In this document: one piece after another, positions 3,189 through 44,447 of the stretch
How positions within the stretch are numbered: the first letter of the stretch is position 1
How the letters are laid out: each line of letters begins with the position of its first letter
Assembly (NCBI GenBank): GCA_964017235.1
Contig: OZ024929.1
Coordinates: 107,741,793-107,805,792 of the forward strand
Source of the DNA: Sabellastarte sp. h YS-2021
Lineage: Eukaryota; Annelida; Polychaeta; Sabellida; Sabellidae
Direction: 5' to 3'
Length of the DNA stretch: 64,000 bases
The notes under the pieces: model-generated
The model's input: the letters and a program-made list of their open reading frames with translations, nothing else
Database searches by the model: none
What the model was told of the DNA's origin: nothing
Program-made: the position numbers and the translations under genes

Positions 3189-3401
3189 TTAAGCGTCCCT
3201 GAAAGGGCGCTTATTTGTTTTCACCTCAGTTTCCTCGCCGCTGTATTATGGTCTCCCTTGAATATCTCCCTTATCATTAGAAGGTTTCAAACCATATTTG
3301 GCAGTTATATACCTTAGGCGTGGGAAAATTTTTCTGCATGCTTAAATTTGACCTTTGACCCTTATGAAGGTCACATGATCAAAAACTATTTTTTGAAGTA
3401 C

Positions 3402-3402
<1 letters not shown>

Positions 3403-3432
<30 letters not shown>
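3403..3432. repeat. Poly-C tract of 30 bases
   Basis: An uninterrupted run of C within the left part of Helitron F. It may be length-polymorphic and is prone to sequencing error. Confidence 0.95.
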
Positions 3433-3433
<1 letters not shown>

Positions 3434-3599
3434 TCATCACAGTTCAGGAAAAACTACTTGCTACAGAGCCTTATAATTTGACACACCTGTTCATACTATC
3501 GAAAACGCGAGCTGATTAGATTTTGGGAGCAATCCCTTGAAAAATGTCTCATTTATGAGTGATTTTCTGACACCTTCCAATCTGAAAGCCTTAAATTTA

Positions 3600-4921
3600 G
3601 GCCAACCCCCCTATTATCTTCTTAAGTATTGCATTTAGAGCTATAAAATGTACTGGGAGGTAATAGGAAACCATATGTGGAGAGTCTAAATAGCCGGTCA
3701 GTTTTACCCCACGGCCCCCCTTATGGGTCAAACTGGGGTCATAAAATAGCTGATTTTAAGTTTTTGCCTTATATCTCCTTTATTGTTGCTTTTATAGCTT
3801 CAGAATGTATTAAGAGGTATTGGGAAAGCATATATGGAGAGTCTAAATAGCCAGTCAGTTTTACCCCCCGACCCCCCCCCCTTATGGGTCAAACTGGGGT
3901 CATAAAATAGCCGATTTTGAGTTTTTGCCTTTATCTCCTTTATTGTTGCTTTTATAGCTTCAGAATATATTAAGAGGTATTGGGAAAGCATATATGGAGA
4001 GTCTAAATAGCCGGTCAGTTTTACCCCCAATCCCCCCTTATGGGTCAAACTGGGGTCATAAAATAGCCGATTTTGAGTTTTTGCCTTTATCTTCTTTATT
4101 GTTGCTTTTATAGCTTCAGAATGTATTAAGAGGTATTGGGAAAGCATATATGGAGAGTCTAAATAGCCAGTCAGTTTTACCCCCCGACCCCCCCCCCCTT
4201 ATGGGTCAAACTGGGGTCATAAAATAGCCGATTTTGAGTTTTTGCCTTTATCTCCTTTATTGTTGCTTTTATAGCTTCAGAATATATTAAGAGGTATTGG
4301 GAAAGCATATATGGAGAGTCTAAATAGCCGGTCAGTTTTACCCCCAATCCCCCCTTATGGGTCAAACTGGGGTCATAAAATAGCCGATTTTGAGTTTTTG
4401 CCTTTATCTTCTTTATTGTTGCTTTTATAGCTTCAGAATATATTAAGAGGTATTGGGAAAGCATATGTGGAGAGTCTAAATAGCCGGTCAGTTTTACCCC
4501 CCGACCCCCCATTATAGGTCAAACTGGGGTCATAAAATAGCCGATTTAGAGTTTTTGCATTATATCTCCTTTATTGTTGCTTTTATAGCTTCAGAATGTA
4601 TTAAGAGGTATTGGGAAAGCATATATTGAGAGTCTAAATAGCCGGTCAGTTTTACCGCCCCCCCCCCCTCCTTATGGGTCAAACTGGGGTCATAAAATAG
4701 CCGATTTTGAGTTTTTGCCTTTATCTCCTTTATTGTTGCTTTTATAGCTTCAGAATATATTAAGAGGTATTGGGAAAGCATATGTGAAGAGTCTAAATAG
4801 CTGGTCAGTTTTACCCCCTGGCCCCCCCGTATGGGTCAAACTAGGGTCATAAAGTAGCTGATTTCGAGTTTTTGCCTTATATCTCGTTTATTGTTGCTTT
4901 TATAGCTTCAGAATGTATTAA
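3600..4921 (+). repeat. Satellite H array, left part (about 156-161 bp)
   Basis: Monomers carry TATATCTCCTTTATTGTTGC, then AAGAGGTATTGGGAAAGCAT, then a C-rich GTCAGTTTTACCCCC stretch. Starts at 3811, 3971, 4127, 4288 and 4444 alternate 160/156/161/156, so a dimer of about 317 bp was duplicated. Minus-strand ORFs of 70-115 codons here only follow the repeat. The array continues at 8263-9230 after the nested transposon. Confidence 0.9.
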
Positions 4922-7900
4922 CAGTCCTACATACAAGGGACCCCTGAATTTCTTGCCTTTCAACCACACCACAAATTTGGTTTTCTTCACCCTAACTTAA
5001 AAATCTAAAAGACTGGGATAGGATTTAAGTTGAAAAACATGTGGCTCTAAGAGAAGACACAAACCACAGAAAGGTTGTAAAAACAAACATGCAGGGAGGA
5101 GATCCTCATATGTGATGAAGAGAACTTGTTCACATTCTAATGCAGTGAGGGTTTGTGAGCATTTGAAATGTAGCATTAGAATTCATATCACTTTTAATTT
5201 GTTTCCCTCTATAGTCCATTGCACACTAGTGCGGCGCGGCTAAATAACATAGAAATGAAGGAAATAGTTCACTGCTTATACATATGTACAGTGCAGTAGC
5301 TAGCAGTGCGGTGCTGATTTTTCTATTTAGAAAATTTTCTATTTTTTAAGAAAAAGCGTGGCTTTTTTCTGTTTTGCCCAAGTTTAGATATTTGGATTTC
5401 CCACATGTTAAAAGTGGTAGTATATCACACAACTATACAGAAATATATTAATTACAAAACAAAATGCAAAACAGACAGGCTCATTGTGAAGGGATTAACT
5501 ACTGGGAGACAGATGACAAAATGTGATGTGTGTCCACATAGACACATAAAAAGGTTTAACTGAATGAGGATTGCAATTACCAGTTATTCTAAAAGGGACA
5601 CACAGGATGAGGGTCTTGTTTGTAGATGGATTAAGTTCTTATAATGGAGAAAGGGATGCCAGGTTAGGTGTGTGACAACATATGTAGACATAACACAACC
5701 AGAAGTTAATTAATTGAAAGGGGTGTAATCACCAGTATTTTTAAGTGTGGGGTCTTAGATATTTAATTATATGTCATTGAATTAACCATTCTAGGCACTT
5801 TAACTGTAATTTACAAATATTTCATCAATTTACTGGAAAAACGCTGGGAAAAGTGGCCCAAATGTGAAAGGTAAAAAAAATTCCCTGCTTAGCATGTAGT
5901 ATAAATCGTACCGTGCCACACTGCGTCGCATATATGTGCAAGAGCCTTAAGTGTTTCAAACTATTTATCTGGGTAATAATATCAGATAAATTTTGCATTA
6001 AAATGTGTTGTGTTAATGTTTTAAAAAGTAGGTATACAAATATAAAATATATTACTTAACATACATTATTGCACAGATGATAAAGTTATCAATTTTGAAT
6101 TTTAAAGCCTAAGTAAACCCTCAAAACACATTTAGAATACAGTATGGGGGGAGGCTGTCTAATGTGATGTTTCCATAATACTGATTTTAAAGTCAGGACC
6201 AGAATTTCAGCAACAGTATTTTTAAGTAAATAAAATCCAGAAAATTGACAAAAGTCAGACGAAAAAAATCAGGGATTTTGCTGTGTGACTAACAGAGTTG
6301 GGATTTAGAGCCAGACACATATTAATGTCATCAAATATAATTGTAATGTTCCGGATGCACTTCATTCAGATCCTACCACACATATGACTGATCAGTCATA
6401 TTAAAATCATATACATCACAGACTTTCTTGACTTTCATTTTCATTGCCAACATATCCAGAGGGTAGAAGATCTGAACCTGTCCAAGCAAATGTGTCTCAT
6501 CATATTAAAATTGTGCAGGTTGGGTCAAAAGTCCTTGACATTCAAGATTTGGTTGGGATTGGTCAGACAGGTTTTTTGATTAATTGGTAGTTCCAGGTTA
6601 GAATGCAGGATAGTTTTTGATAAATTTTGGAATTTTTCACCCTAACTTGCCAATTTTTAAGCTGAACAAATCTTGTATTTGTTAACCTGATCCCCAGGGT
6701 AGAGATGCATTTAAATTTTCTGGCCTGTTTTGGTAAAGTTTAGCATTTTTCAACCATGAGTTGCTGATTTTAAAGTTTGAGTCACCATCTGGGCAGTCCA
6801 TGAATATGGAACCAGGCCTTAACTGTCAATACAAACTCAACTGACTCCTACAATATCCAGTGTTATATTAAGTGGTGGTTCCATATTACCAACTATGGTC
6901 CTACTATGCAAAATTTTAAGTCAGGACCAAAGTTTCTCTGCTCATATATGTCAGGAAGTAATTTCATGGATGGCGGCAAAATTTGGGAGAATATAAAACA
7001 TGTTAGATATTTTGGGGGCAAAAAATGGGTGAATTTGAGACCCCCAAAAGGCAGGGTTTACAGCCCAACTTATGTTGATGCCATTAAATCAAATTGCAAT
7101 GTTTAGGACCCACGCCATTCAGATCTTACCACCAATAAGTTTAATTGTATTGTTCTTACAATCAACTATATTAAAATCATACAGGTTAGAGACTTACTGG
7201 CCCAAGTTTTGACCAAAATGATTACATGGAATGGCCATGTGCTTGTCATCCCCTATCACTTTTATTGCTGACTGGCATAATTAACTAATACTAAGGTAGC
7301 TCTTTAACTATGGCAATTGGATTGTATATGTGGTCCCCAATTGGAAACATTGAGATTGGTTGAGATCCACAGAAGAAGAGGGGCTGAAAAATAACAGTTT
7401 CTGAGAAATGTTACAACTTGTAATTAAAAGCTTCTCATTGATTCCTGAAAACCATTTCTGATTGGTTCTCAAAATTTTCCAACTTGGATACGAACATTAC
7501 AAAAGTCTATAGATGATTATAGCAATTGACTTCAAATGATCAAAAGAATTGCTGTAAGAATGTTAAGCTGGCTTTCAGATTGAATTCCTGAATGGTATAT
7601 CTGATAAGGGTCATTGTAGTTTATGAAAAATTCAGACAGATTGAATTTATCGAGAAGATATGCTATTCACTCCTGAATGCTCCTAAAGTTTGACAGTCAG
7701 TCCCAGGCCCTTCCTAAACAGCAAGATCATGATTTACTAACACCCCAAATGAAAAGAGTTCCTCCCAACACTCCTATTTGATGATTGTTTAAGATTGTAG
7801 CCCAATCAAGGGGGGACATTCACCACAGGGGGAACATGGCCCTAAGTTTTTTATTTTCTAGTTTGATAATCCAAGAAAATTAAAAAAGCTTCAAAATTGT

Positions 7901-8262
7901 ATCCAGTCCACAAACTATGCACAAAAACATAGCTTTAAACAGGTTCACAAAAAAGAAATCCACAAAAGATTTCTGTAATATCCAGTATTATTCCACAGCT
8001 GATGTTGATAAAGCAGTTACTTGTATTCCTTTATAAAATTAGATAGAAGAGTGTATGCAATGTATATTGAGATTACCTTTCACTAGAATGACAACAGACC
8101 ACAGTTTATTTGTTTTAGCTGGGATGCAGTACTACTGCACACATGTAGTGTAAGCAGCAACTTAAGCCACTCTTACATAGAGGAGGGATAATTGTAAAAA
8201 ACATGCAGAGAGATTGTGGTTGCTCAAAACGAGCAGGTCTACCTCGCTTGTATGTAGGACTG
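4922..8262. mobile_element. TTAA-flanked DNA transposon (Kolobok-like or piggyBac-like), no transposase
   Basis: Both ends carry the 16-bp inverted repeat CAGTCCTACATACAAG. TTAA lies directly outside each end (4918-4921 and 8263-8266). Removing the element plus one TTAA restores satellite H perfectly (GAATGTATTAAGAGGTATT). TTAA target duplication is known for piggyBac, Kolobok and Sola3; the CAG-type terminus fits Kolobok better than the CCC of piggyBac. The 3.34-kb interior is AT-rich, has no ORF above 66 codons and no recognisable transposase, so it is a non-autonomous or decayed copy. Confidence 0.85.
5212..5945. repeat. Possible degenerate inverted-repeat insertion
   Basis: A left end around CATTGCACACTAGTGCGG and a right end whose reverse complement reads CTTGCACATATATGCGACG are imperfectly related. 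They are much more GC-rich than the surrounding DNA. This may be an old MITE nested in the TTAA transposon. No target duplication was found. Confidence 0.3.
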
Positions 8263-9230
8263 TTAAGAGGTATTGGGAAAGTATATATGGAGAGTCTAAA
8301 TAGCCAGTCAGTTTTACCCCCCGACCCCCCCTTGTGGGTCAAACTGGGGTCATAAAATAGCCGATTTGGAGTTTTTGCCTTATATCTCCTTTATTGTTGC
8401 TTTTATAGCTTCAGAATATATTAAGAGGTATTGGGAAAGCATATGTGGAGAGTCTAAATAGCCGGTCAGTTTTACCCCCCGATCCCCCCCTTATGGGCCA
8501 AACTGGGGTCATAAATAGCTGCTTTGGAGTTTTTGCCTTATATCTCCTTTATTGTTGCTTTTATAGCTTCAGAATGTATGAAGAGGTATTGGGAAAGCAT
8601 ATGTGGAGAATCTAAATAGCCGGTCAGTTTTATCCCCCAACCCCCCCTTATGGGTCAAACTGGGGTCATAAAATAGTTGCTTTGGAGTTTTGCCTTATAT
8701 CTCCTTTATTGTTGCTTTTATACCTTCAAAATGTATTAAGAGATATTGGGAAAGCATATGTGGAGAGTCTAAATAGCCGGTCAGTTTTACCCCCTGCTCC
8801 CCCCCTATGGGTCAAACTGGGGTCATAAAATAGTTGCTTTGGAGTTTTGCCTTATATCTCCTTTATTGTTGCTTTTATACCTTCAAAATGTATTAAGAGA
8901 TATTGGGAAAGCATATGTGGAGAGTCTAAATAGCCGGTCAGTTTTACCCCCTGCTCCCCCCCTATGGGTCAAACTGGGGTCATAAAATAGCTGATTTGGA
9001 GTTTTTGCCTTATATCTCCTTTATCGTTGCTTTTATAGCTTCAGAATGTATTAAGAGGTATTGAGAAAGCATATGTGGAGAATCTAAATAGCCGGTCAGT
9101 TTTACCCCCCCGACCCTCCCTTATGGGCCAAAGTGGGGTCATAAATAGCTGCTTTGGAGTTTTTGCCTTATATCTCCTTTATTGTTGGTTTTATAGCTTC
9201 AGAATGTATTAAGAGGTATTGGGAAAGCAT
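8263..9230 (+). repeat. Satellite H array, right part
   Basis: About six further monomers of the same roughly 156-bp unit, in phase with the left part once the TTAA transposon is removed. The C-rich segment varies in length between monomers. Confidence 0.9.
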
Positions 9231-9338
9231 ACGGTGCAGCTTTGTGCATTCTTAGGTTTACAGCATGCTTATTAAAACCACAAAGCATTTTAAACTTTAA
9301 GGGACGCTTCACTTTTGTTAGCAAAAGCATTCCTCTAG

Positions 9339-9550
9339 TTTCACTATGTTATAGCTGACCCAAAAGTAGGTGAACAACATATTTTAACAAAATACTCCAA
9401 ATGCAATATTTTTCAAGTTACAACTGATTTACTCAGCTATGCCATGAGCTACAGGTATGAAATTTTACTATGTTATAGCTGACCCCAAAATTATGTGAAT
9501 AACATAGGAAACCAAATACTCTAAACGGAATAGTTTTCAACTTATAAGTG
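9339..9550 (+). repeat. Satellite B, remainder after Helitron F
   Basis: Just over one 155-bp B monomer resumes exactly at TTTCACTATGTTATAGCTGA, the phase at which the array stopped at 3188. Homology is lost near 9550. Confidence 0.85.
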
Positions 9551-9679
9551 TCAGTCAGTCAGCTGACATAAAAAGTGACATGCTTCCTTCCTTCCCTCCC
9601 AACCAGCCCCGCTATCAGCTTACTAGGGGTCTAAGTAAGGGCATTTAGACAACAAAAAAGATGCTAAGACATCACTCTG

Positions 9680-9834
9680 TCTAGACAGGAAGGAAGTATG
9701 ATATGCCACCTGGCGAATGCACAGTACTACGCCGGCCCAGCTGGTGGAAACACAGGACGTTTTTTTCTGTCCTTTGGAGGGCCAGTCTGCACCGACCGGA
9801 TTAGCAATTGTCCATTAGATAGGGTATTTAGTTA
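9680..9834 (+). repeat. Partial copy of stem-loop MITE J
   Basis: This matches the interior and right arm of the MITE at 50362-50557: GGCGAATGCACAG, then TTTTTTCTGTCCTTTGG and a right arm with CGGATTAGCAATTGTCCATT. The left arm is missing. Helitron G1 begins at its right edge. Confidence 0.65.
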
Positions 9835-11193
9835 TTGTATCCCCGGACGAAAGACGGGGATACTTAGGATTCAGTACGGTCAAGCTGCCGCCGCCGCAGA
9901 GATTTCCTTTTGGACGCGATAACTTAAAAAATATTTTAGAACTTTCAAATTTGGTATGTGGGTATATATGGGCAATGCCACGAACGCTATTGTTTCGTGA
10001 CCTTGACCTTCAATCTCAGGGTCACTGGTGGCCACTTAAAGGTCAAATTTTGGCCATTTTTTCACCTTTTGGCACAGTTCTCATATACAGAAAGTTAGAT
10101 CATCCTATGGCTGGTATATATAATACCTATATATGTCCTCTGTAAGCATGGGGAAATTTGACCTTGAAGTTCTTCACTGAAGGTCATCCACTGACCGCCA
10201 AAGTACCTGACCGAGGGTCATTTTTGGCCTTTTTCGAGATATTTTCACACTTAACGCTGACTATATTGCATGGAAACTATTAAAAATGGCTTTGGAGGTT
10301 GAGTACATGATGGACTTCTACCATCCAGGCTTACTGGTTACAGATCTTCATTTAAGGTCATCCACTGGCCGCCAAAGTACTGACCAAAGGTCATTTTTGG
10401 CATATTTGGAGATATTTTCACACTTAATGCTGACTACATTGCGTGGAAACTATTGAAAATGGCTTTGGAGGTTGAGTACATGATGGAGTACCAGCATCCA
10501 GGCTTATCGGTTACAGATCTTCATTGAAGGTCATCCACTGACCGCCAAAGTACCTGACCCAGGGTCATTTTTGGCCCTCTATTTGTTTGTTTGTGAACAT
10601 AATAACTCAAAAACTGACGGACGGATTTTGATAAAATTTTCAGGATATGTCCAAAATGGTAAAAGGAAGATATGATTAAATTTTGGGAGTGATCCGGATA
10701 GCTGTCTGGATCTTCTGGATCCATGAAATTTAATTTTTAAAGACAGACAACTCAAAAACTTATAGGTGCATTTTGATGAAATTTTCAGGAAATGTCCTTA
10801 TTGGGACAAGGAACAAGTGATTAGATTTTGGGAGTGATCTGGATCAATGTCTGGATCATCTGGATCCAGGCTGCCAGATGTGTTTGTGTACAATATAGCT
10901 CAAAAACTTATGGACAGATTTTGATGAAATTTTCAGGATATGTCTGAAAAGGTAAAAGGATGAAATCGTTGAATTTTGGAAGTGATCCGGATCACTATAT
11001 GGATCTTCTGGATCCATGAAATGTAATTTTTAAAGACAGATATAAGTGAAACAACTAGTGATTAGCTTTTGGAAGTAATCTGATACTATGGAGAATCCTG
11101 ACCTGGTGCTCTAGGAAACAGGCTCAAGCCCGACATATTCACGCCTTAACTATGTCCCATCCGGGATACACTGCGTCGAGATGCAATGTCTAG
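9835..11193 (+). mobile_element. Helitron/Helentron-like element G1 (complete, non-autonomous)
   Basis: The 5' end TTGTATCCCCGG opens a hairpin with TATCCCC/GGGGATA arms. The 3' end has CCGGGATA (11161-11168), the inverse of the 5' STIR, then a short TGCG/TGCA hairpin and CTAG (11190-11193). The flanks are A on the left and T on the right. The body has no ORF above 74 codons. It contains repeats around CGCCAAAGTACCTGACC and others around GATCC...AAATTTTCAGGA. Other copies are G2 (51127-52830), G3 (40836-44087) and a fragment ending at 18289. Confidence 0.8.
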
Positions 11194-11214
11194 TTAAAAA
11201 TTAATGTGCTTATT

Positions 11215-12389: not shown

Positions 12390-13365
12390 CTAGATTATTG
12401 CTTCGCAAGAGAAAAAGAAATTGTTTTGAATAGAAAATTGATTTACGCAGAAATTGAAGATGGCCACCAAGAATTGCGGGAAAATTTTGTCGAAATCGCT
12501 GTATCTTGCACTATTTCCGAGAATTTTCGAATTTTTCGCCAAATTTACAAAACACAAAAATGCTTACATCTCCAAAACCGTGCTAGATAGAGGAATTTCG
12601 ATGAAATTTTTGAGCCACAGGCTATATCTGCAGAGTAGTCATCCCAATCTTTAAAAAAATTTTTGTCTCGCAAAAAATGACAGCCATTTGGAATTTTTTA
12701 ATTTTTTCGCAAAAATTGCAAAACACAAAAATGCTTATATCTCGTAAACCGTGCTAGATAGAGTGATTTCGGCAACATTTTTGACCCACAGGGTATCTAC
12801 GGACAGTAGTTATCCTAACTTTACAAAAAAACTTTGTCTCGCCAAAAATGGCGGCCATTTTGAATTTTCGAATTTTTGGCAAAAATTGCAAAAGACAAAA
12901 TTCTTATATCTCGAAAACCATGCTAGATAGAGGAATTTTGAAAAAAAAATTTGACCCACAGAGTATGTCTGCAGAGTCGCTATGCCAGTTTTTTAAAAAA
13001 TTTTGTCTCGCCAAAAATTGCAAAACACAAAAATGCTTCTATCTCAAAAACCGTGCTAGATAGAGCGATTTCGGCAAAATTTTTGACCCACAGGGTATCT
13101 ATGGACAGTAGCTATCCTAACTTTACAAAAAACTTTTGTCTCGCCAAAAATGGCGGCCATTTTGAATTTTCAAATTTTTGGGCAAATATTGCAACACACG
13201 AAAATGCTTATATCTTGAAAACCGTGCTAGATAGAGCAGACTACGCTAACTTTGGTTGCCACAACAATATAAGGCTAGAAGCAGAGCATTTTCTTAATAC
13301 TTTAGCACTCACCTTTATATCCTTTTCGGGACCATTATCTTTTTTTTTTGCAAGCGATTCTCTGG
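12390..13365 (+). mobile_element. Helitron-like element D1 with 168-bp satellite, 3' hairpin deleted
   Basis: The body is four to five monomers of the GCCATTTTGAATTTT / TCTCGAAAACCGTGCTAGATAG satellite, inverted relative to D2. From 13240 to 13365 it matches the 3' end of D2 and D3, ending CTGG, but about 23 bases holding the GCTT of the STIR and the TTTTTGC hairpin are missing. The left edge is set by loss of satellite B homology at CTAGATTATTGC. Open frames such as 12951-13469 are satellite-driven. Confidence 0.7.
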
Positions 13366-13490
13366 TTTGTCTTGGAATGTACCAGTACAGATATCTGGTG
13401 TTATTAAAGGACAAGGAATCACACCACGGAAACGGTTTTTGTTTACATGCTCTTTTCACAGCCTTGTAGGGTTTTGTTTGAGCTTTCAGA

Positions 13491-15487: not shown

Positions 15488-15690
15488 TTAAGTGTCCATT
15501 GAAAAGGGCGCTTATTTGTTTTCACATTGAGTTTCCCCACCGCCACTGCATTATGTTTTCCCTTGAATATCTCCCTTATTAGTGGCCAGATTTTAACCAT
15601 TTTTTGCAGTTATATATCTTAGGCATGAAAAACCTTTCCACATGCTTATTTTTGACCTTAGACATTTATCAAGGTCACATTTTCACTCAG
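15488..15690 (+). mobile_element. 5' end fragment of an F-type Helitron (F2)
   Basis: TTAAGTGTCC...AAGGGCGCTTATTTG matches the 5' hairpin end of F at 3189, and homology continues to about 15690 (GACCTT...AAGGTCACA). No 3' end with CTAG was found to the right, so this is either truncated or too diverged to follow. Confidence 0.65.
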
Positions 15691-16630: not shown

Positions 16631-16639
16631 AAGTGTGAA

Positions 16640-17590: not shown

Positions 17591-17910
17591 ACTGACAAAG
17601 AAATGCCTGTGGTGGCCATCTTGTTTTCAAAATGAGGCCAAAAATATTCCCAGTCAAGAGTTTGTAATGAGGAATATATCCTGCAAATTTGAGATGTCTA
17701 CCTGTAATACCCTTTGCTCTAGAGGGCAAACAAAAGTCCTTGCTGAAAGTAAAAAAAAAAGCCTGTGGTGGCCATCTTGTTTTTCAAAATGAAGCCAAAA
17801 ATATTCCCAGGCAAGATTTTATGGTTATGAATACATCCTGCAAATTTGAGAAGGCTAGCTATAATATTTTGTTTTCGTTAGAGCAGTAACGGTGAAATCC
17901 CTCTGCACAC
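17591..17910 (+). repeat. Module C copy
   Basis: Two C units (GTGGCCATCTTGTTTTCAAA and a second with TTCAAAATGAAGCC) follow satellite A as at 1696. Instead of satellite B, the sequence switches near 17911 to Helitron G. Confidence 0.75.
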
Positions 17911-18289
17911 AGGCCAAAAATGGCCTCAGTGAGGTACTTTGGCGGTCTGTGGATGAGCTTCAAGGTCAAATTTCTGCATGCTTATAGAGGACATATATAT
18001 GTATTATATATATATCACCCATAGGATGATCTAACTTTCTGGATATGAGAACTGGCCCAAATTGTGAAAAATGGCCAAAATCTGACCTTTAAGAGGCCAC
18101 CAGTGACCTTGAATGTGAAGGTCAAGGTCACAAAACAACAGCGTTCGTGGCATTGCTCATATATACCAACATACCAAATTTGAAAGGTCTAACTAAAATA
18201 TTTTTTATCGTGTCCGAAAGGAAATCTCAGCGGCAATGGCGTGACCGTACTGAATACTAAGTATCCCTGACTTTCGTCTGGGGATGCAA
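17911..18289 (-). mobile_element. 5'-end fragment of Helitron G (G4)
   Basis: Homologous to the first part of G1 in reverse orientation. It ends with the hairpin ATCCC(T)GAC...GTCTGGGGAT at about 18262-18285, so the 5' terminus is TTGCATCCCCAG at 18289. Its left side is fused to module C, so the 3' part was lost or replaced. Confidence 0.75.
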
Positions 18290-19271: not shown

Positions 19272-21629
19272 TCACAAGTACATGCTAGCTAGTTTTCTCC
19301 TGGCATGGTCACTATTTGTTCTTTGCAACTGCCTGCCATTTGTGTATTTCTCATCATAACCATCCCCAACTCTTGCCACTGCAACATATGGTGGGTGTGC
19401 CATCGCTTGTGTTGGTGATGCTACTGATAGTCTACTGGGTCCAACAACTACTGGAGAAGTACCAGGGCCCTCAATATGCACCATGGTTGGCATACCTCTT
19501 GGCAGATGCTTTTGGGATGATCTTCGGTGATAGTCTGGTGTATCAGAATCATGTACATTTGCTACAGCTGCCGAAGTTGGCAAAATAAGTCTGTTGTTCA
19601 TCAGACTAATACTGTTTGTTTTGGGTTTTGTTTGAGGTTTTTGATGCGATAATGAGACTTTTGGTTGAGATGGGACATGGTCTGAATCACTGGAGTGGGA
19701 ATGTTTGGACTGGTCTGACGGTGGATCTGTTTCTGTGAAATTTTTAGGAGGGACAGGTGGTGGAGGATGGTTCTCTGGATTATCCTCATAGTCTGGTTGT
19801 GGGATATCCATGGTTTGATTGTCCTCATAGTCTGGTTTTGGTATCCTCATCCCTTGATCAACAATGTCTTCTGTAACTGAACGTGATGACTTTACCTTCT
19901 TTGGCTTGCTTTTTTTTGAAGCTGGGGAATCTTTTGCCTTATCCAGTGAACCTTGACTTCCAGATGATGCGTGTCCACTGTCATGTACTGAATGTTGTTT
20001 GTAAACTTGTCTCAGGTTTTGAACAGCTGGATCTGGTGGAAGATTGATGGATGGTTCCATTTTTTTTCTGACATCTGTTTTAAGTGGTATTGCTTCTGTG
20101 GAAGAAGGGAAGTTCTCAGTTGGATCTGAGAGCAATTCGGGAGATTTATCAAGCTTAAACTCCTGTTGTTTGGCCTGCAACTTTTTCTGATTACGTATTT
20201 TATCTAAAGGTTCATAAATCGGTTCAATCCAATCCCATTTTGTATTACCTGGTTTATCCTTGTCAGTCCCATTATCATCAGCTGGTATGTTTTTATACTC
20301 TACAGCATTCTCCGGGCTATCACTTGGTACTGCTGATTGCTCTACAGAATGACTTTCTACTTCTTTTGGCTTTGTCTTTTCATCTTTTGGAGGTGGTGTA
20401 CTTCTATTATTAGAACTAAATCTGTTGGCAAATGATTTTCCTAAGAAAGCAAGTTTTGATTTCGTACTCGATTTCTTATCAGGTAAAGGTGGTACCCTAT
20501 TTTTCTGTGGTCTTGGTCTCGGTGCTGGAGGTGTGGGTCCTCCATCCCTGACATACTGGTAAATATCCTCCACCTCATCAAAAAGAATGTCTTCTTCTTC
20601 TTCATCCAGTGAAACTTTAGCCTCTTTCTTTGGTTCTATTTTATCCACTGTGGCTATGGGATCAGGTTCGGGAACACTAAACAGTAGGTGGATGCTATTC
20701 ATGAAACTGTTGTACATATTGTCACATCTCTCATGAATTTCATCAAATTCTGACATAGTTTTGATTTCTTCAAAGTTGTTTGCTGCAACCAACTTCAAGG
20801 GCTCTCTGGTTGACACTGGTACCATTTTGGAGTCTTTTTTGAATGGGTACATAAAAGCTGTTTCATCACTATAGATATTCAGTAATCTAAACACACCAGT
20901 GAAATGTTTTTCTAGCTTTGTGGGAATGATTCCATGAACAAGCCTCACTGTGATAGGTAATCTGAATTTTTGCAATATTGCATGGATGGTATGGACACCA
21001 GAAATATTCTGTTGTCCAGCCACTGGACTAAACAGACCCTTCTGTTCAAAATCAAGGTAAATGGTCTCACCATTTTTATTCAAACAAGACATAAACTTCC
21101 GTTGGATTATACCTTTTCCAGTCTTTTGTGTCATCCGAATTTCTCCAACAACTGAGATGATATCACCACCAGTGATCACAATAGTATATTCACTTGAAAG
21201 GTCAGTCCCTTCACTCTGAAGAAAGGCCTTTATGTTCTCTCGGACTAAGTAACTTGCATTCTTTGTGAACTGAAAGACATTTGCAAGCTCTTTTACACTC
21301 TCTATAGCTTTCACAGCTTTCCCGTCCTCAGACAGCACTTCAAACCAGCCCTGGTAAGTCAGTGGTATGGCATACTTGTGATCTGATAACACTGCCCTTT
21401 TGCCTTCTTTCAGTTTGACACTTTCTGCCAAGATTTTTCTGCCGGTTGATAAAGAATACAAGTACAAGTGATTGCATACTTGCTTGGCAAATCCTATGTT
21501 CCTGTACTGACCTTTGGTCACTTTGACTATATTTGGAACTGGAAACTTTCCCAAAAATTCCTTCAGTTGTGTAGACTGGTCACCCCATTCTACTGCTTCC
21601 AGAATCTTGGTTTCAGGATTATTTGCCAT
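19272..21629 (-). CDS. GAREM-like CABIT-domain signalling adaptor
   Basis: A 785-codon uninterrupted gene. Start: the open frame begins with a TTG two codons after an in-frame TAA. The first ATG, nine codons later (MANNPETK), has a strong Kozak context (AAGATGG) and is taken as the start. Residues about 22-290 form a CABIT domain, marked by PNIVKVTKGQYRNIG, RKILAESVKL, IPLTYQGWFEVLSEDG and a matching second half. Next comes an acidic cluster with EDIYQYV (about 355), then a long disordered tail. The tail has SH3-type proline motifs (VPPLPDK, PPPPVPPK), a GRB2 SH2-type YKN (about 445) and two PDYEDN repeats (about 600-617). GAREM proteins link receptor tyrosine kinases to GRB2/SHP2 and ERK; THEMIS is the other CABIT family. 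The C-terminal SAM domain of vertebrate GAREM is not visible. An adaptor role is inferred from domain layout. Confidence 0.85.
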   Translation of the reverse strand: MANNPETKILEAVEWGDQSTQLKEFLGKFPVPNIVKVTKGQYRNIGFAKQVCNHLYLYSLSTGRKILAESVKLKEGKRAVLSDHKYAIPLTYQGWFEVLSEDGKAVKAIESVKELANVFQFTKNASYLVRENIKAFLQSEGTDLSSEYTIVITGGDIISVVGEIRMTQKTGKGIIQRKFMSCLNKNGETIYLDFEQKGLFSPVAGQQNISGVHTIHAILQKFRLPITVRLVHGIIPTKLEKHFTGVFRLLNIYSDETAFMYPFKKDSKMVPVSTREPLKLVAANNFEEIKTMSEFDEIHERCDNMYNSFMNSIHLLFSVPEPDPIATVDKIEPKKEAKVSLDEEEEDILFDEVEDIYQYVRDGGPTPPAPRPRPQKNRVPPLPDKKSSTKSKLAFLGKSFANRFSSNNRSTPPPKDEKTKPKEVESHSVEQSAVPSDSPENAVEYKNIPADDNGTDKDKPGNTKWDWIEPIYEPLDKIRNQKKLQAKQQEFKLDKSPELLSDPTENFPSSTEAIPLKTDVRKKMEPSINLPPDPAVQNLRQVYKQHSVHDSGHASSGSQGSLDKAKDSPASKKSKPKKVKSSRSVTEDIVDQGMRIPKPDYEDNQTMDIPQPDYEDNPENHPPPPVPPKNFTETDPPSDQSKHSHSSDSDHVPSQPKVSLSHQKPQTKPKTNSISLMNNRLILPTSAAVANVHDSDTPDYHRRSSQKHLPRGMPTMVHIEGPGTSPVVVGPSRLSVASPTQAMAHPPYVAVARVGDGYDEKYTNGRQLQRTNSDHARRKLASMYL

Positions 21630-22777
21630 CTTCAATAATACTTTTCCATTTAACAAGTATTATCCCTTGTCAGTTTCACAGTCACCAACATATCAATGTA
21701 ATTGTAATCTCAAGAATTTTTGAACATACAGAATCCGCGCATCTGAATATACAAGACGTATTCCCGTGAAATAAACACTGAATTTATACGGCTGTTCTCT
21801 ATTCAGGTAATAAATATTATCTTGTTTATTCTTCCGTCAGTATAGATCAGGTTTGCCAGCATATATAATTGATTATGCAAATGAGTCACAGGGTGGTTCA
21901 CTTAACAGGACTTGAAGATATCCAATGTTTCAGTTTTTATTATAACTATAACGTCCACGATACCTGTTCAACAATCAACGTGTGTACAGAAATGTATAGT
22001 AGTAATCTTTATCCCAGTTGAAGAAGACTTATCAACAGAATATCAGGAATGTAGATTGAGAAACTGGTACTTATTTCCTTGTTAAGAAAGTCTCACGCAT
22101 AAGGTTTATTATTCAGAATGGCCTGTGGGCTGAACCATTTTGCAAGTACAACTCGTTTTATGAAACCCAAATATGGAGCCAGTGGCCTGGAACAGCTGGG
22201 GAAGACTTGTATAAGGCCAGGCAAACAAACATCTTGGGTTGTGGCCTTCAGGGTTCACTAAAAAATAAAAATGATTGAAACAATTAGAAAATAATAAAAT
22301 CATGACGTTTAGAATTAATTTTAGAGAGGTTTAGTGTTACGTTTTGGCCATCAAAACCTTAAACGCAAACGTATTTACGTCAGCATTAGATGTGTATCAG
22401 ATGACTTTTAAGGTTTGGGGGGTCAATTACGTACGTTAGGTTTTATACGTAAAGGCTGGTTTATTTACGTTCACTCACCCCTATCTATTTTATTTAAAAA
22501 CTACACACTACAAATAAATATCCCACAACCCCATAGGCAGATAAATATGTACACCATGTTTTGGTTAGGTTTCAGTTCACTATATTTTCCCATATGAATG
22601 CCAGAGGTCTGTTTACAAACGATGCTTCTTTTTTATCACATCAAAGAAACTACGTTGACCTGCACTCTTTCATATGGACGTATTGCTAAACCCTTATTTT
22701 ACAAACGCATCCACTTCAAACCTAACGTATCTCTTACGGAAATTATTTTACGTTAGGTAGCTGTCAAACGTATGACT
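21630..22777. other. 5' flank of the CABIT gene
   Basis: Presumed 5' UTR and promoter region on the minus strand. No TATA box or other site stands out. From about 22330 to 22770 the sequence is enriched in ACGT/TACGT words and may be the decayed arm of another inverted-repeat element, but no matching partner was found. Confidence 0.4.
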
Positions 22778-34225: not shown

Positions 34226-34289
34226 TCTTGCACATCTCATTTAGATGTGTTTTGCATCTAGGGTGCCAATTATTTGGGGTACATTCCAT

Positions 34290-37460: not shown

Positions 37461-37837
37461 AGCTTTTTAGGTAAGGTGCATTAACGCAATAAAACCTGAC
37501 TTTTCTAGTCCTATTTTTATGATTTTTATCATAGTTGTGCTGTCCAATTACATGTACGAGGGTTAAAATAAAAAAGCAGTATTTGGGTAAAATTACAGTA
37601 TGCGGATACTGAGCTGCTTTTGCAGAGGTCTGCACTCTATATGAGTATGCTTCAGCTTTCTGTATTTTTCATAGAGGAGAACGACCCATTGCCTTAATTG
37701 TTGAACATGTTGAACCCTCTCACAGAGTAAACAGGACCAGAATATACTTCTACTGAGGCACGATTTTAATACAAGGCAAATTTCATTGGAAAAGTGTAAT
37801 TACATCATTTGTATTTTGTGAACTAATTTTTAAAGAT

Positions 37838-38023
37838 GTGGTTGGATATCACTTCATCCAGCGGGACCACCATGGTATTTCCGACATAGAAATACACATT
37901 GTGGATTTCATCTATGTACATCCGGAATCCACTAAAGCTTCCAAAATATGCAGGACAATTGAGAGAAACTGTCAATACAGGATGCACTCCAAAGCACCCT
38001 CAGGCCTCAACATTCAGGACTAA
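37838..38023 (+). pseudogene. GIY-YIG endonuclease-like remnant (Penelope-type)
   Basis: An open stretch with GYHFIQRDHHGISDIEIH, then VHPESTKASK and a final APSGLNIQD. The layout H-F......H...D, later R..E......H....P.GLN is that of the C-terminal GIY-YIG endonuclease of Penelope-like retroelements. The usual tryptophan before the last block is a cysteine. No reverse transcriptase is adjacent. A fragment only. Confidence 0.5.
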
Positions 38024-38755
38024 CCTGGAGTGTGCAACTTGTCACTTGCCACATTCAAAAAAGTTTTATATTACAAGATAAAGCACACTCAGTCATCCTG
38101 ATCCACATCATAAGATCAGTTCCACCAGTAACTAAGAATAACAGGCCCTTGGGTCTGTGGCATGCCTGATGACATAACCCCTGTATGCACATACAAGGAA
38201 TACAGGTGGAACCCACACCAAGTTAAGTGAAATTAGCAACTGCAAGTTGCAAACAGTACCCCAATAACTACCCATTGGGATCTGTGGAAATACCCCATTT
38301 TTCCATTTAACCCACCAACTCACATACAATGCCAAACAACTTACATTCACACACACTAAAGCATCTCTATTAGCATCTGATGAGCCTCTCCGGCAAAACT
38401 GTACTCACAACCACACACAAACACAGTTGTGATGTCAGAGCCTTAGGACGTCATAATGACATCACATAGTCTCCATAGTGATGCCCTTTTACCTTAGATT
38501 TCCTGCAAATCAATTGGTCAATCAGGCAAAATCACCTTAGTTACCAAAACTTGACCATTCAAAGTCATAATAAGCACAGTCATGCACCAGGATGTCCTAT
38601 TGGGAGTCGTAGTGATAATTTGGCATGTTCCACTTACTTCTTGTATTTTGTGAACTAAGCGGCCAATAAACTAGATACTTTTTGTCAAAATCAAAAATAC
38701 CGTTTTCTTGGAAATTTTAAGATGGACAATCATTATTTTGTAAAATTATTTATAA
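38024..38755. other. Unassigned stretch left of Helitron D2
   Basis: No gene or repeat recognised. Confidence 0.5.
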
Positions 38756-38925
38756 CTAGAGGATCGCTCGCAAAAAAAAAGATAATGTTTTTGCATAGCA
38801 AAAACAAAGCGTCCCGAAAAGGATATAAAGGTGAGTGCTAAAGTATTAAGAAAATGCTTCGTTTCTAGCCTTATACTGTTGTGGCAACCAAAGTCAGCGC
38901 AGTCTGCTCTATCTAGCACAGTTTT

Positions 38926-39180
38926 CAAGATATAAGCATTTTTGAGTTTTGCAAAAAATTCGAAAATTCAAAATGTCCGCTATATTTGGCCAGACAAAAA
39001 TATTTTGAAAATTGGCATGGCTACTCTGCAGAGATACCCAGCAGGTCAAAAATTTTGTTGAGTTCGCTCCATCTAGCACGGTTTTCGAGATATAAGCATT
39101 TTTGTGTTTTGCAAAAACTTTGAAAATTCAAAATGGCCACCATTTTTGGGGAGACAAAAATTTTTGACAAGACCACTGCC
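38926..39180 (+). repeat. Satellite D monomers (about 168 bp), left
   Basis: Units read CTCTATCTAGCACGGTTTTC, GAGATATAAGCATTTTTGTG, AAAATGGCCGCCATTTTTGG. The last 18-mer contains a palindromic core (AAAATGGC..GCCATTTT). They recur at 40200-40820. Confidence 0.8.
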
Positions 39181-39229
39181 GCGGTGTGTATCTCCCGCCG
39201 AGCATTAAAGGAGAAGAAATAGCTTTTCC

Positions 39230-40195
39230 GAGATATTCACAATTGTTCATTTTCATGTGTGAAAGGTCTTCCAAAAGTAGGTGAATGAGTTATTTGAGAA
39301 AAATTGGCTATCTGCAATACTATTAAGAGATAATTCACATTTACTCCTTTTGAGTAGGTGAGTAATTACCTACGGGTCTGGAACTTCACCAAGTGAAAGT
39401 TCTCCCAAAAGTAGATGAATGAGTATTTGATAAAAATTGGGTATCTGCAATACTTTTACAGATAATTAGCATTTACTCATTTTGAGTAGGTGAATAATTA
39501 GCTATGGGTCTGAAACTTCACGGAGTGAAAGCTCTCCCAAAAGTACATGAATGAGTTATTTGATAAAAATTGGGTATCCGCAATAGTTTTTGAGATAATT
39601 AGCATTTACTCATTTTGAGTAGGTGAGTAATTAGCTACGGGTCTGAAACTTCACCAAGTGAAAGCTCTCCCAAAAGTAGGTGAATGAGTTATTTGAGAAA
39701 AATTGGCTATCTGCAATAGTTTTTGAGATAATTAGCATTTACTCATTTTGAGTAGGTGAGTAATTAGCTACGGGTCTGAAACTTCACCAAGTGAAAGCTC
39801 TCCCAAAAGTAGGTGAATGAGTTATTTGAGAAAAATTGGCTATCTGCAATACTTTTAGAGGTAATTCGCATTTACTCATTTTGAGTACGTGAATAATTAG
39901 CTATGGCTCTGAAACTTCACCATGTGAAAGCTCTTCCAAAAGTAGATGAATGAGTTATTTGAGAAAAATTGGCTATCGGCAATACTTTTAAGAGATAATT
40001 CGCATTTACTCATTTTGAGTAGGTGAGTAATTATCTACGGGTCTCAAACTTCACCATGTGAAAGCTCTCCCAAAAGTAGATGAATGAGTTATTTGATAAA
40101 AATTGGGTATCCGCAATAGTTTGAGATAATTAGCATTTACTCATTTTGAGTAGGTGAATAATTAGCTACTGGTCTGAAACTTCACCGAGTGAAAG
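39230..40195 (+). repeat. Satellite E array, 7-8 copies (about 133 bp)
   Basis: Monomers with TTTACTCATTTTGAGTAGG, GTCTGAAACTTCACCAAGTG and GAAAGCTCTCCCAAAAGTAG. The same unit has expanded to more than 50 copies in D3 (56640 to the window end). Confidence 0.9.
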
Positions 40196-40199
40196 CTCT

Positions 40200-40830
40200 T
40201 TGGGATAGCTGCTCTGCAGAGATACCCTGAAGATCAAAAATTTCATCGAAATCGCTCTATGTAGTACGATTTTCGAGATATTAGCATTTTTGTGTTTTGC
40301 AATTTTTGCGCAAAAATTCGAAAATTCAAAATGGCCGCCATTTTTTTGTGAGACAAAATTTTTTTGAAAATTGGCATGGCTACTCTTCCGAGATACCCTG
40401 TAAGTCAAAAATTTTGTCAAAATCGCTCTATCTAGCAGGGTTTTTGAGATATAAGCATTTTTATGTTTTGCAATTTTTGCAAAAAATTCGAAAATTCAAA
40501 ATGGCCGCCATTTTTGGCGAGACAAAATTTTTTTGAAAATAGGCATGGCTACTCTGCAGAGATACCCTGTGGGTCAAAACTTTCGTCGAAATCGCTCTAT
40601 CTAGTACGGTTTTCGAGAAATAAGCATTTTTATGTTTTGCAATTTTTGCAAAAAATTCGAAAATTCAAAATGGCCGCCATTTTTGGCGAGACAAAAATTT
40701 TTTGAAAATTGGGATAACTACTCTGCAGAGATACCCTGTGGGTCAAAAATTTCGTCGAAATCGCTCTATCTAGCACGGTTTTCGAGATATAAGCATTTTT
40801 CTGTTTTCCTTATTTGGAAAATTCATAATG
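40200..40830 (+). repeat. Satellite D array, right
   Basis: Four units with starts 166-169 bp apart, closely similar to one another. Open frames of about 80 codons follow this period. Confidence 0.85.
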
Positions 40831-40835
40831 ATTAA

Positions 40836-43800
40836 CTAGATTGGGCCAACTCGGCGCCAACATATCCCCAGACAGGTCATCACTCACGCCACAAGTTTTG
40901 ATCGGGAATTTTTTAAAACATAATTACCCATTATTATATGAACTTCAGCACATCAATCTACTCTGTTTATATCTTCCCAAGGAAGATGGTGTATCCCCAG
41001 ACGCCGAATACATAACTCAAATTATATTTTCAATCTTCCTGCAATGATAACTCTAAACCTATTTTCAAAGTATTTAAATGATTGATGATTGAATGTCCAT
41101 TCTAAAATAATAATCCCAATAGAGCATATCTGTTTCTATATTTGTTGACAAATAAAATATTATTTTTAACTCAACTCATCATATTTTTCAATCTTCCTTC
41201 AAAGTATTTAAATGATTGATGATTCAATGTCCATTCTAAAATTCATAATCCCAAAAGCGCATATCTGTTTCTATATTTGTTCACAAATAAAATATTATTT
41301 AAAAAAAAATTATTTATATTATTATTTTATTATATTATTTTTAGAATTTGCAAATTGTTTTCAGTTATTCATTTCCTCTATACCTATATATGTGGTCCAT
41401 ATATATGCAACCTAAATATGTGACACAATCTCAGTTCTGACTCCCCTTTGTGTTATATGTAATGAAGCCCACCACCTCCCACCCCCACCCCTCTCCCCTT
41501 CTCCACACCTCTCTCACTATTACACAAGATCTGCAACCCCATTGAGTTCTTTGTTTCTCATCTGATATCATTAAATACCTTTGTTTATTTAGTGTCACTC
41601 AATATAGCTGGAGGTCCCAGAGGTGGGTGGGGGGAATCCGGGTGGGGGATGTGGGTTGAGCATAAATGGTAAACAAACAATCTATATAAAAGGGGTACTC
41701 AAATACAAAAAGAATTGAGAATTTTATCAACTGAAATGAGTTCATAACTGTAGGAGCTGTGCCAAAATTAACTGAGGCAAGTTGAATAAACCTGGGCTAG
41801 TTGGGGGTTAAAAATCCCCTAGTTTTACTACATAAGGATATAATTTCATTAATATTGGGACTTAAAGCTCACTTAAAGTGTCCATTTTGTCTACTTGAAT
41901 ATGTTTAACCAGTTTCATTTTAAAAAGTTAAAAACTCAGCAAGCAGAGGTATAACACACAAAAATAAGTTCTTAAAAGACTAAGATAGCCATAACATTAT
42001 TAATATTCAAAATTTAAATAGACAGGCATTTCCTTTTAAAAATTCAAAGATTTCAGCTCTATAACCCACATAGTTTGACAGTTACTGGGCTTTAAAGTGG
42101 CATAATATCCATAAATTGGGTTTCTGTGGGCATTTTACAATTGTTAAAGAGACCTTAGCAATTAAACTACAGATCTGAAACTTTTTGGGGGACATACATA
42201 ACAAACAAAAATTATATATAATACAGTTTAAGACTTGTCACACTAAGCATTTCCAAATAACAGGGCAAAATACAGAAAAAATGTCAAAAAAGGCACTTGG
42301 GCGAGTGTCTATGGCCCTCATACACAGGTTAAATGTCTACTGAAAACCTTGATTTTCGGCATATGTAAAAAGGACATAATAATGCATTCCCAGATGGGAT
42401 TTCAGCTCCATCAATCACATAGTTTAACAGTTACAGGGCTTAAAGGTGGTAAAAAGTCCAAATATTGGGTCATTGTGGGCCTTTTAGAGATCTTGATGTG
42501 GCTTTCAAATTAAAGCTTCAGACTTAAAATTTGTTACATACTAAGATTACACATAGAATATGTATCTAATAAAGTATGAAACTTCTCAGACTTACCATTT
42601 CCAAGTTACAGAGCAAAATATGTGAAAAATGTCTTAAAAGGGTCACTCAGGTGGGTGTTTAAGGTCCTCATACACAGGTTAAATGTCCACTTGAAGCCTT
42701 GATTTTTGGCACATGTAAAAAGAACATAATAATGTATTCCCAGATGAGATTTCAGCTCTATCAGTCACATAGTTTAACAGTCACAGGCCTTAAAATTGGC
42801 AAAAAGTCCAAATACTGGGTCTTTATGGGGCCTTCTAGAGACCTAAATGTGGCCTTCAAATTAAAGCTTCAGACTTAAAATTTGTCACATACTAAGATTA
42901 CACATAGAATATGCATCTAATACAGTTTGAAACTTCTTAGACTTACCATTTCCAAGTTACAGGGAAAATATGTGAAAAATGTCTAAAAATGGTCACTCGG
43001 GTGGGGATTTATGGTCCTCATACACAGGTTAAATGTCTTCTTAAAGCCTTAATTTTTGGCACATATAAAAATAACATACTAATATCTTCTCAGATAGGAT
43101 TTGAGCTCTATCAGTCACATAGTTTGACAGTCACAGGGCTTAAAAGTAGCAAAAAGTCCAAATATTGGGTCTTTGGGAGCCTTTTAGAGACCTCAATTTG
43201 ACCTTCAAAATTAAAGCTTCAGACTTAAAATCTGTTACATACTAAGATTACACACAGAATATATATCTAATACAGTTTGAAACTTCTCAGACTTACCATT
43301 TCCAAGTTACAGGGAAAAAGATGTGAAAAATGTCTTATAAGGGTCACTCGGGTGGGTGTTTATGGTCCTGATACACAGGTTAACTGTCTATTAAAGGCCT
43401 AAATGTTGGGGCACATATAAGAAAACACATAGATATATTCCCAGATGATATTTAACTTAGATGAGAGACATAGTTTGAAAGCTACAGTGCTTGAAAGTGG
43501 CAAAAAGTGCATAAATTGGGTCTCTGTGGGCACTTTTGAGACCTTAAGTCGACCCCTTTGGGTACACCTACAGCCCTAAAATTTTCTACAGACAAGGATT
43601 ACATATCAAAGTTATACTTAGCGCAGTTTGAGACTCATCAGAATTATCACTTCCAAATTATAGGGCAAAATATGTGAAAAGTATAGCAAAAAATCCCTAA
43701 GTGGGGGTATTTATGGGCCTCAAACACACTTTTCTCCTCAACTTAAAGTCATGATTTTCGGCACATGTACTAAGAACATATTAATGTGTTGTCAGGTAAA

Positions 43801-44087
43801 ATTTCAGCCAGCTGAGCATCATAGTTTGTGACCTACAGGGCTCTAAGTGGCCAAAAGTCCAATTTCTGACCTTAAGGTGGCCATAAGTTCTTTTTTACTG
43901 GGAGTTTAAGGTCACCTTAAAATAGGGATCTTCCTTTGGGCACCCTTAACATGTGTATCAAGTTTGAAAAAAATATATTAATTTGTTTTTGAGTTATCGC
44001 GTCCACAAGGAAATTTCTACGGCGGCGGCGGTGGCGGCGCGACGGACCTGAATCCAATATATCCCCGACTTTCGTCTGGGGATATAA
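40836..44087 (-). mobile_element. Helitron/Helentron-like element G3 inside D2
   Basis: On the minus strand the 5' terminus is TTATATCCCCAGAC at 44087, with a hairpin at 44060-44084 (TATCCCC/GGGGATA arms plus GAC/GTC). The 3' end at 40836 has CTAG, an imperfect TTGGGCC/GCGCCAA hairpin and a TATCCCCAGAC STIR at about 40859. The flanks join as GATTAA/TTAATC, again A to T. The body carries 350-bp tandem repeats and a GGCGGCGGCGGTGG stretch next to the 5' hairpin. Confidence 0.8.
41960..43900 (+). repeat. 350-bp tandem repeat (satellite I), about 5.5 copies
   Basis: TACACAGGTTAAATGTC recurs at 42321, 42671, 43021 and 43372, a steady 350-351 bases. Each unit also has TTTCCAAGTTACAGGG and CACATAGTTT. 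The outer units are more diverged. Confidence 0.9.
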
Positions 44088-44447
44088 TTAATCATTAACT
44101 ACTCGGCCATTTCTTAACCAATCAATGCCAAAATCTAATGATTTCCAGATTTTAATAGAATGAATGTATTTGCCAAGTTTCAGGTGAATTGATAAAATTC
44201 CTTTCAAGTTATCATCCGGACAAGCTTCCCCATCGAAAAAAGACATTTTTGGTCATGTGACCTCTCTGATTGGTTGAAATGTCACTGCAGCATATTCAAA
44301 AAAATTCCCCAAGGCTACTGCCTAAACCTGCCAAATTTGAAAAGAATCCGCCTAACGGTTACAGAGTTATTAGGAAAACAAAATGCGGAGCCGGCGGAGC
44401 CTGAAGGTCTCCCATACACAAACAAGCGTCCCTTGCGGGACGCTTAA

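Follow-up and report, generated by a model that had tools for sequence, protein, structure and literature searches.

Probable non-autonomous Helentron/Helitron2-type elements sharing a terminal plan and a TNATT insertion site in the annelid Sabellastarte sp.

Introduction

Helitron2 elements were defined by a 5' hairpin, one arm of which recurs as an inverted repeat at the 3' side (Bao and Jurka 2013, PMC3627910), and in the accompanying model the two copies of this asymmetric terminal inverted repeat (ATIR) pair with each other, whereby the 5' hairpin is opened and the endpoint is marked. Here we analyze three families of elements, F, D and G, in a 64,000-nucleotide stretch of the genome of the annelid Sabellastarte sp. 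h YS-2021 (GenBank assembly GCA_964017235.1, contig OZ024929.1, positions 107,741,793 to 107,805,792, forward strand), which we call the window, and compare them with the closest described systems, as set out in the accessible portions of the cited papers. The elements begin with TT and a 5' hairpin, carry an inverted copy of the first 10-14 nt of that hairpin near the 3' end, and finish with a second hairpin and CTAG. We conclude, with a probability of about 0.88, that F, D and G are abundant non-autonomous rolling-circle transposons of the Helentron/Helitron2 type (HINEs) with satellite-like internal arrays.

The likeness to Helitron2 (PMC3627910) extends to a 5' ATIR that pairs downstream as a 5' hairpin, a 3' ATIR just above the 3' hairpin, T as the first base, and compensatory changes. 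In contrast, the Chlamydomonas examples of Helitron2 have TTTT and T/C as their insertion borders, in some cases with duplications, and the accessible text of that paper does not state CTAG and TNATT for Helitron2. Helentrons and HINEs (Thomas 2014, PMC4067079) likewise have palindromic subterminal inverted repeats (subTIRs; 12-15 bp), one close to the 5' end and one subterminal on the 3' side, a 3' palindrome, border T's that cannot be assigned, and internal tandem repeats, and the annelid genome contains a Helentron frame of their endonuclease type. Unlike those HINEs, the elements here have CTAG and TNATT, and the distance of their 3' copy from the end is 23-52 nt, compared with about 38-60 in the HINEs described. 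HINEs carrying satellite arrays are known in the Pacific oyster (PMC7492417), where Cg_HINE has a subTIR, an inverted repeat, a microsatellite, a satellite-like array, a 3' subTIR, a palindrome and a TT target; the likeness is one of layout. A C-run in F occupies the place of the oyster microsatellite, and the autonomous partner of Cg_HINE is likewise unmatched.

Three further systems share parts of this plan. Pacific oyster Helitrons (PMC7992393) have CTAG, a 3' hairpin, insertion at A^T in 86% and subTIRs in 257 of 751, and the authors called those with subTIRs and CTAG possible intermediates; their 5' end is TC, not TT, and the accessible text gives no TNATT site. FoHeli1/2 of Fusarium (PMC5148889) have a 5' hairpin arm inverted near the 3' end, a target starting TNAT (the next base is given as T in the legend and as A in the text) and an ambiguous border T, but their 3' end is ATTTT. 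Lepidopteran Hel-2 (PMC4344730) has a 5' inverted repeat, a subterminal inverted repeat (STIR), a 3' stem-loop, CTAG and flanking A/T, but starts with TC.

The end layout has thus already been described for Helitron2/Helentron, and the mixture of CTAG and A/T is in print for oyster and moths. An initial annotation of the window had proposed that the 5' arm/STIR rule, together with the mixture of STIR, CTAG and A/T target, may mark a distinct non-autonomous group. Neither is new: the rule belongs to the Helitron2 definition and is also printed for HINEs (PMC4067079) and FoHeli1/2 (PMC5148889), and the mixture is printed for oyster (PMC7992393) and Hel-2 (PMC4344730). What is sharper here is that families of different appearance insert at the same five-base TNATT. 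We met no such site common to sequence-different animal families in the accessible portions of the related literature. Among the matches listed for Helitron with TNAT or TNATT, PMC5148889 alone looked relevant; the titles listed for HLE2-type literature held nothing on point, and literature text searched with the element end sequences gave nothing related by title among the matches listed.

A terminal plan shared by F, D and G

The full plan was found in four complete elements (F, D3, G1 and G3) and parts of it in four one-ended ones. The proposal of one terminal grammar across several families is borne out by these four. It had been extended to D2 and G2, which are 5' ends alone. The complete elements and their parts, numbered within the window, are as follows.

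3189..9338 (+): element F, complete, TT...CTAG, within a 155-bp satellite array
3191..3212 (+): F 5' hairpin, with the 5' ATIR as its initial 10 nt
3403..3432 (+): (C)30 run in F, upstream of the tandem array
3614..4921 (+): F central tandem array, part 1, 156-bp unit
8263..9231 (+): F central tandem array, part 2, 158-bp unit
9300..9309 (+): F 3' ATIR (STIR) AGGGACGCTT, unchanged in 20 of 20 further 3' ends
9312..9327 (+): F 3' hairpin, 7 nt upstream of CTAG
38756..44447 (-): element D3, both ends, encloses G3
44424..44445 (-): D3 5' hairpin, perfect stem of 9 bp
39259..40199 (-): D3 central array, 133-bp unit
40200..40807 (-): D3 central array, 169-bp unit
38807..38816 (-): D3 3' ATIR CGGGACGCTT
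38786..38806 (-): D3 3' hairpin, 26 nt upstream of CTAG
9835..11193 (+): element G1, complete, own 3' STIR decayed
9837..9863 (+): G1 5' hairpin
11172..11185 (+): G1 3' hairpin, includes one G-T pair
40836..44087 (-): element G3, both ends, nested within D3
40862..40873 (-): G3 3' ATIR GTCTGGGGATAT, 12 of 12 against the G3 5' end

The one-ended copies are:

13240..13371 (+): D1, decayed D-family 3' end, ends CTGG, STIR and hairpin partly gone
15488..15680 (+): D2, F-family 5' end alone, degraded hairpin, placed by alignment to F
17907..18289 (-): G2, G-family 5' end alone (at 18289), inner limit by eye, 86.6% to G1 over 350 positions
51127..52838 (-): G4, G-family 3' end (at 51127), intact STIR and hairpin, 5' limit by eye
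56146..64000 (-): D4, D-family 3' end (at 56146), then a 133-bp array to the window end

Each 5' end was compared, over its first 17 nt, with the 80 nt preceding each 3' end. The inverted match to the element's own 3' end was 10 nt in F, 10 in D3 and 12 in G3; the G1 5' end matched 14 nt of the G4 3' end and 8 nt of its own decayed one. F matched the D 3' ends over 9 nt, and an F or D end matched any G end over at most 6. In a comparison set of 206 other CTAG ends, which may contain the element's own 5' arm, the lengths of 10 (F), 10 (D3), 14 (G1) and 12 (G3) were reached 0, 1, 0 and 1 times. The D2 5' end had an inverted match of just 4-5 nt to the 3' ends of F, D3 and D4. The repeat outruns the hairpin arm and takes in loop bases, which corrects the equation of the 5' arm with the STIR.

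The two ATIR copies change together: a T/A in F stands against a G/C in D, and two G/C in G1/G4 correspond to two A/T in G3. Another 20 G 3' ends retain an intact 3' copy. These in-step changes fit, and are predicted by, the Helitron2 pairing model, without being proof of it.

The 5' hairpin made of the 5' ATIR is present in F, D3, G1 and G3 and broken in D2; that of G2 is weak. Below the 3' ATIR, the second hairpin has a perfect stem in F, D3, D4 and G4 and an imperfect one in G1 and G3, which have no perfect 5-bp stem. Between copies, homology at left ends reached at most 4 nt outside TT, except for an overrun of 14-15 nt in G2-G3, and at right ends stopped at most 2 nt (G1-G4) or 6-7 nt (D3-D4) past CTAG. 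D2 is 80% identical to F across 198 positions, and no 3' end was identified for it. D4 is 95.6% identical to D3, and G4 is 92.3% identical to G1 across 362 positions, with homology stopping 2 nt past CTAG and the 5' side stopping at another repeat. Deeper homology between F/D and G 5' ends was judged by pairwise scores alone, all of which were below the cut-off used.

Inspected genome copies keep the same ends

For the F 5' end there were 1,087 candidates in the 1.786-Gb genome (647 contigs), and identity was 95-100% in the 40 that were scored; for the F 3' end there were 239, and 36 out of 40 scored reached 99%. The near-identity of these best-scoring copies suggests that the F family is young. 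The two G1 ends had 546 and 2,369 candidates. We inspected 28 F loci (8, including the window's own copy, and 20 of another 32), and the left border was the same in all 28. The 3' end was visible in 18: CTAG in 16, CCAG in one and CTTA in one. CTAG was also present in all 20 further F ends and all 20 G ends inspected, and the 5' end was TT, not TC, in 28 F and 20 G ends. The expectation that copies share end positions was thus upheld, none of those inspected ending elsewhere. The 18 complete F copies measured 624-3256 bp. Two of them (L038 and L046; L numbers denote retrieved genomic sequences) repeat the L037 site already counted and were left out, together with two weak secondary matches in L007. 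These two weaker F-like 5' ends, at positions 141 and 960 of L007, are followed by a strong one no more than 1.4 kb downstream, which suggests either tandem 5' ends or more than one insertion.

The D3 3' end used as a DNA query gave no candidates, common words being skipped in the search, and the D family was counted with an exact D-type 5' pattern (loop of 3-6 nt) instead. This gave 6,926 hairpins genome-wide. G-type 3' ends of one sequence numbered 829, and the reversed patterns used as controls had no match. The F/D 5' hairpin pattern was unmatched in viral and prokaryote collections.

The elements insert at TNATT

Left flanks of 26 F sites, 25 of them other than the window's own, had T at -3 in all 26, A (23) or T (3) at -2, and A (25) or G (1) at -1. 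Right flanks began with TT in 16 of 16, with no strong preference thereafter, and in 20 of 20 further F 3' ends taken from 40 listed candidates. In the G family, for which 20 of 40 listed candidates were read at each end, T(-3) was found in 20 of 20 5' ends, -2 was mixed and A(-1) was found in 16 of 20; TT followed 20 of 20 3' ends. Pooled, T(-3) was present in 46/46, A(-1) in 41/46 and right-flank TT in 56/56, which places the insertion site at TNA^TT. The window ends fit this target on the left (6/6) and on the right (6/6). More widely, TNA preceded TT at 5,031 of the 6,926 D-type hairpins (the TNA pattern fixed the loop at 4 nt), and TT followed 771 of the 829 G-type 3' ends. The initially described A/T target is shorthand for part of this longer site, and A is the least fixed of its four defined letters.

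Uninterrupted counterparts were found for several insertions. The joined flanks of F (60 bp each) matched uninterrupted satellite at 54192-54310 with 92.5% identity over 120 columns, and matched 2508-2627 at 89%, at equal length and with the junction spanned. The right flank of D4, the sole side compared, was 97% identical to an uninterrupted copy at 53074-53224, and D-family similarity picks up again within 5-14 nt of the G3 3' end. Among 16 further F sites with both ends, compared with the available sequence, three had an empty-site match: that of L037 lies within a tandem array in which many units match, some gap-free; that of L047 is to L025 and L003 (about 84%, 5 gaps each); and that of L051 spans just 67 bp.

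No duplication longer than TT was seen at empty sites. Since elements and right flanks both start with TT, the sequence does not settle the cut position or a possible TT duplication, being compatible with A^TT, AT^T and ATT^ and also with duplication of T or TT. Given this ambiguity at the junctions, a mixture of types cannot be claimed on the strength of an A/T target without duplication. At every site with both sides legible, TT is found to the left and to the right, as it would be around MITE-like (miniature inverted-repeat transposable element) cut-and-paste elements with a TT target duplication enclosing hairpin to CTAG. Such elements are a very improbable explanation here: there are no terminal inverted repeats (TIRs), the 3' copy lies 23-52 nt inside the element end with a different hairpin after it, and this asymmetry is kept across families.

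Rep loci and the autonomous partner

The initial view of the families as Helitron/Helentron-like and non-autonomous is supported. None of the 18 window open reading frames (ORFs) of at least 100 aa gave a Rep or helicase match at E up to 0.01. In the genome, profile PF14214 matched 24 Rep loci. Rep motif 2 was legible in nine, as RGS (6) or RGW (3) and never as the Helitron-type RGL (types after the accessible portion of PMC4067079). Four of the loci (L012, L014, L015 and L017) form one Rep family, 98.9-99.4% alike, with the motif RGSPHLH, which is Helentron-type S in the same typing.

These motifs bear on whether F, D and G might be canonical Helitron1 elements with acquired subterminal inverted repeats, served by a Helitron1-type Rep/helicase and having an A^T target and a CTRR end. 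Such elements would have the CTAG end and the A(-1) found in 41/46 copies, and the oyster genome paper, in its accessible portion (PMC7992393), classes similar elements as Helitrons with Helentron features. We nevertheless consider this unlikely. Unlike canonical Helitron1, the elements start with TT rather than TC (28 F and 20 G ends) and possess a 5' hairpin, which with its ATIR is the mark of Helitron2 (PMC3627910); T(-3) and TT(+1+2) are more fixed than A; and the legible Rep motifs (9/24 loci) are RGS or RGW, none RGL.

The L015 locus contains an open Helentron frame of 2,245 aa with Helitron_like_N, a PIF1 helicase and an endonuclease-like C-terminal end, where the Exo_endo_phos match (24.2 bits) was slightly below the 24.5 cut-off; L014 has a shorter frame (1,783 aa). 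The two loci stay similar as far as ...CGCAACCCGCCTTTTGGGGCACCTCTGACCCTCTTGT and differ beyond it, and we therefore place the 3' end of this Helentron at CGCAACCCGCCTTTTGGGGCACCTCTGACCCTCTTGT. A 12-nt 3' ATIR, CGCAACCCGCCT, lies 25 nt before that end. The inverse of this stretch, AGGCGGGTTGCG, forms the start of a 5' hairpin located some 1.3 kb upstream of L053. A slightly changed second copy of the AGGCGGGTTGCG type lies ~0.6 kb further out, adjoining F-type repeat sequence. The L015 Helentron is kin in design to F/D/G, not a demonstrated partner; it has the same plan and other end sequences.

An autonomous F/D/G partner would be marked by TTAAGCGTCCC... or TTGTATCCCC... together with CTAG. 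In the 24 Rep loci as first fetched, the F/D/G end motifs comprised nested G-type 5' ends in L012 and L013, and two TCCTCTAG matches, in L020 and L027, on the opposite strand and without TT after. The similarity of L012 to L015 breaks at a G3-like 5' end inside the Rep frame, at TTA^TT. For the L010/L016 Rep family and for L009, no ends paired with CTAG were discernible; the C-terminal stretch of L010/L016 is endonuclease-like by eye. Rep loci other than these three sets were viewed with about 1.5 kb of flank. Downstream of the L010/L016 ORFs (L120, L121) there is a 133-bp satellite unit ~90% identical to the window array.

Weighing the HINE reading and a proposed mechanism

The reading of F, D and G as HINEs draws directly on both ends, the in-step complementarity between families, the fixed ends and target in the copies examined, and the empty sites. 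Several observations weigh against it. No autonomous element with F/D/G ends was found among the loci examined, and the L015-family Helentron ends in CTCTTGT, not CTAG, has a weak 3' hairpin, and sits (by eye) in a T-run target in F-type repeat sequence. CTAG (CTRR) is itself the Helitron1-type 3' end. The inspected copies were the best-scoring ones, not a random sample; 1,895 of the 6,926 D-type hairpins fall outside the TNA count, through another flank or another loop length; 58 of the 829 G 3' ends have no TT after them; and 13 of the 16 F sites had no empty-site match in the available sequence. The plan is also a weak blind detector, too unspecific for proof. A loose scan of the window gave 29 matches (60 shuffles: mean 7.2, maximum 14), but in ~21 of the 29 the arms came from one internal tandem repeat. 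A scan with 10 exact nt gave 9, three of them F, D3 and G3 (82 shuffles: mean 1.8, maximum 10). A 7-bp hairpin of some kind occurs at 1,155 of 12,915 TT positions (8.9%). Given this low specificity, the scans against shuffles were dropped as proof.

The weak specificity of these scans would also suit chance convergence in an A+T-rich genome, in which the likeness of F/D and G ends would owe nothing to shared machinery. We judge this the least probable of the explanations considered, since F copies, G copies and most D-type hairpins have the same target and the ends are exactly conserved in hundreds to thousands of copies.

If F, D and G are HINEs, the account with most support is rolling-circle transposition in which a Helentron-type Rep/helicase made elsewhere would act in trans, nicking the element at its T-rich 5' border, and the nicked strand would be peeled off. 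The end might be recognized through the 3' hairpin and through base pairing between the 3' and 5' ATIRs, which would open the 5' hairpin, and the strand or circle would then be joined into a TNATT target. We infer the enzyme and the circle, as well as where the nick falls and how the pairing switches. We suggest, tentatively, that F, D and G may be cargo of one machinery, from a Helentron-derived lineage with CTAG and TNATT in which the ATIR pair could vary in sequence provided that the 5' arm, its hairpin partner and the 3' copy did so jointly; the families would come to look unrelated while being processed by a single enzyme lineage, and this would be a real Helitron1-Helentron intermediate.

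The shared TNATT and the in-step changes of the inverted repeat render the published Helitron2 pairing model testable, and the families are so large (6,926 exact D-type hairpins) that they offer an extensive natural record of Helentron end and target recognition. Reading a single copy as "A/T, no duplication" can misfile such elements as canonical Helitrons.

Other features of the elements and the window

The F array is interrupted at about 4921-8263 by a 3.3-kb DNA transposon with TIR (A)CAGTCCTACATACAAG and flanks that read as a TA or TTAA duplication; judging by its ends, we take it to be Tc1/mariner-like. An ORF within the F tandem array, 4180-4518 (-), had Ntox14 and Peptidase_U32 Pfam matches, both below cut-off and most likely due to chance. 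In G3, an internal 3'-like module at 40940-41020 (-) consists of GTCTGGGGATA and a hairpin, ATCTTCC...GGAAGAT, without CTAG; lying some 130 bp before the true end, it could be a bypassed terminus. The D1 3' end at 13320-13371 (+) lacks (by eye), relative to D3, a ~23-nt block, with the loss of half of the STIR and the hairpin.

Two further hairpin families were seen. One (H-type), with the 5' hairpin TTACCCCACAGCCC...GGGCTGTCGGGGTA and a 146-bp array, occurs at 47995 (-) in the window and also at about 525 and 12025 in the joined contig L122+L009+L123; no 3' partner was identified for it. The H-type hairpin upstream of L009 was considered as the 5' end of that locus and dropped, there being no inverted copy between the ORFs and the next H-type hairpin. 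The other, with hairpin GAGTGCCCGT..ACGGGCACT, occurs at 52845 and 55760 (+). D4 lies inside the second copy, and the copy at 52845 has a 143-147-bp array followed by a 155-bp array.

Gene pieces in the window include a 795-aa frame with a CABIT domain at 19272-21659 (-) and an exon matching importin-13 at 48130-48360 (-). The window is rich in repeats, with the 155-bp satellite, the 133-bp satellite over the greater part of 56.6-64 kb, and additional arrays, of which many have 132-175-bp units. The 133-bp unit forms a 7-copy array in D3 (39259-40199) and a satellite of more than 7 kb beside D4 (56648-64000), so the satellite may have arisen by expansion of a HINE array. A 74-bp portion of this unit is ~77% like the 155-bp satellite.

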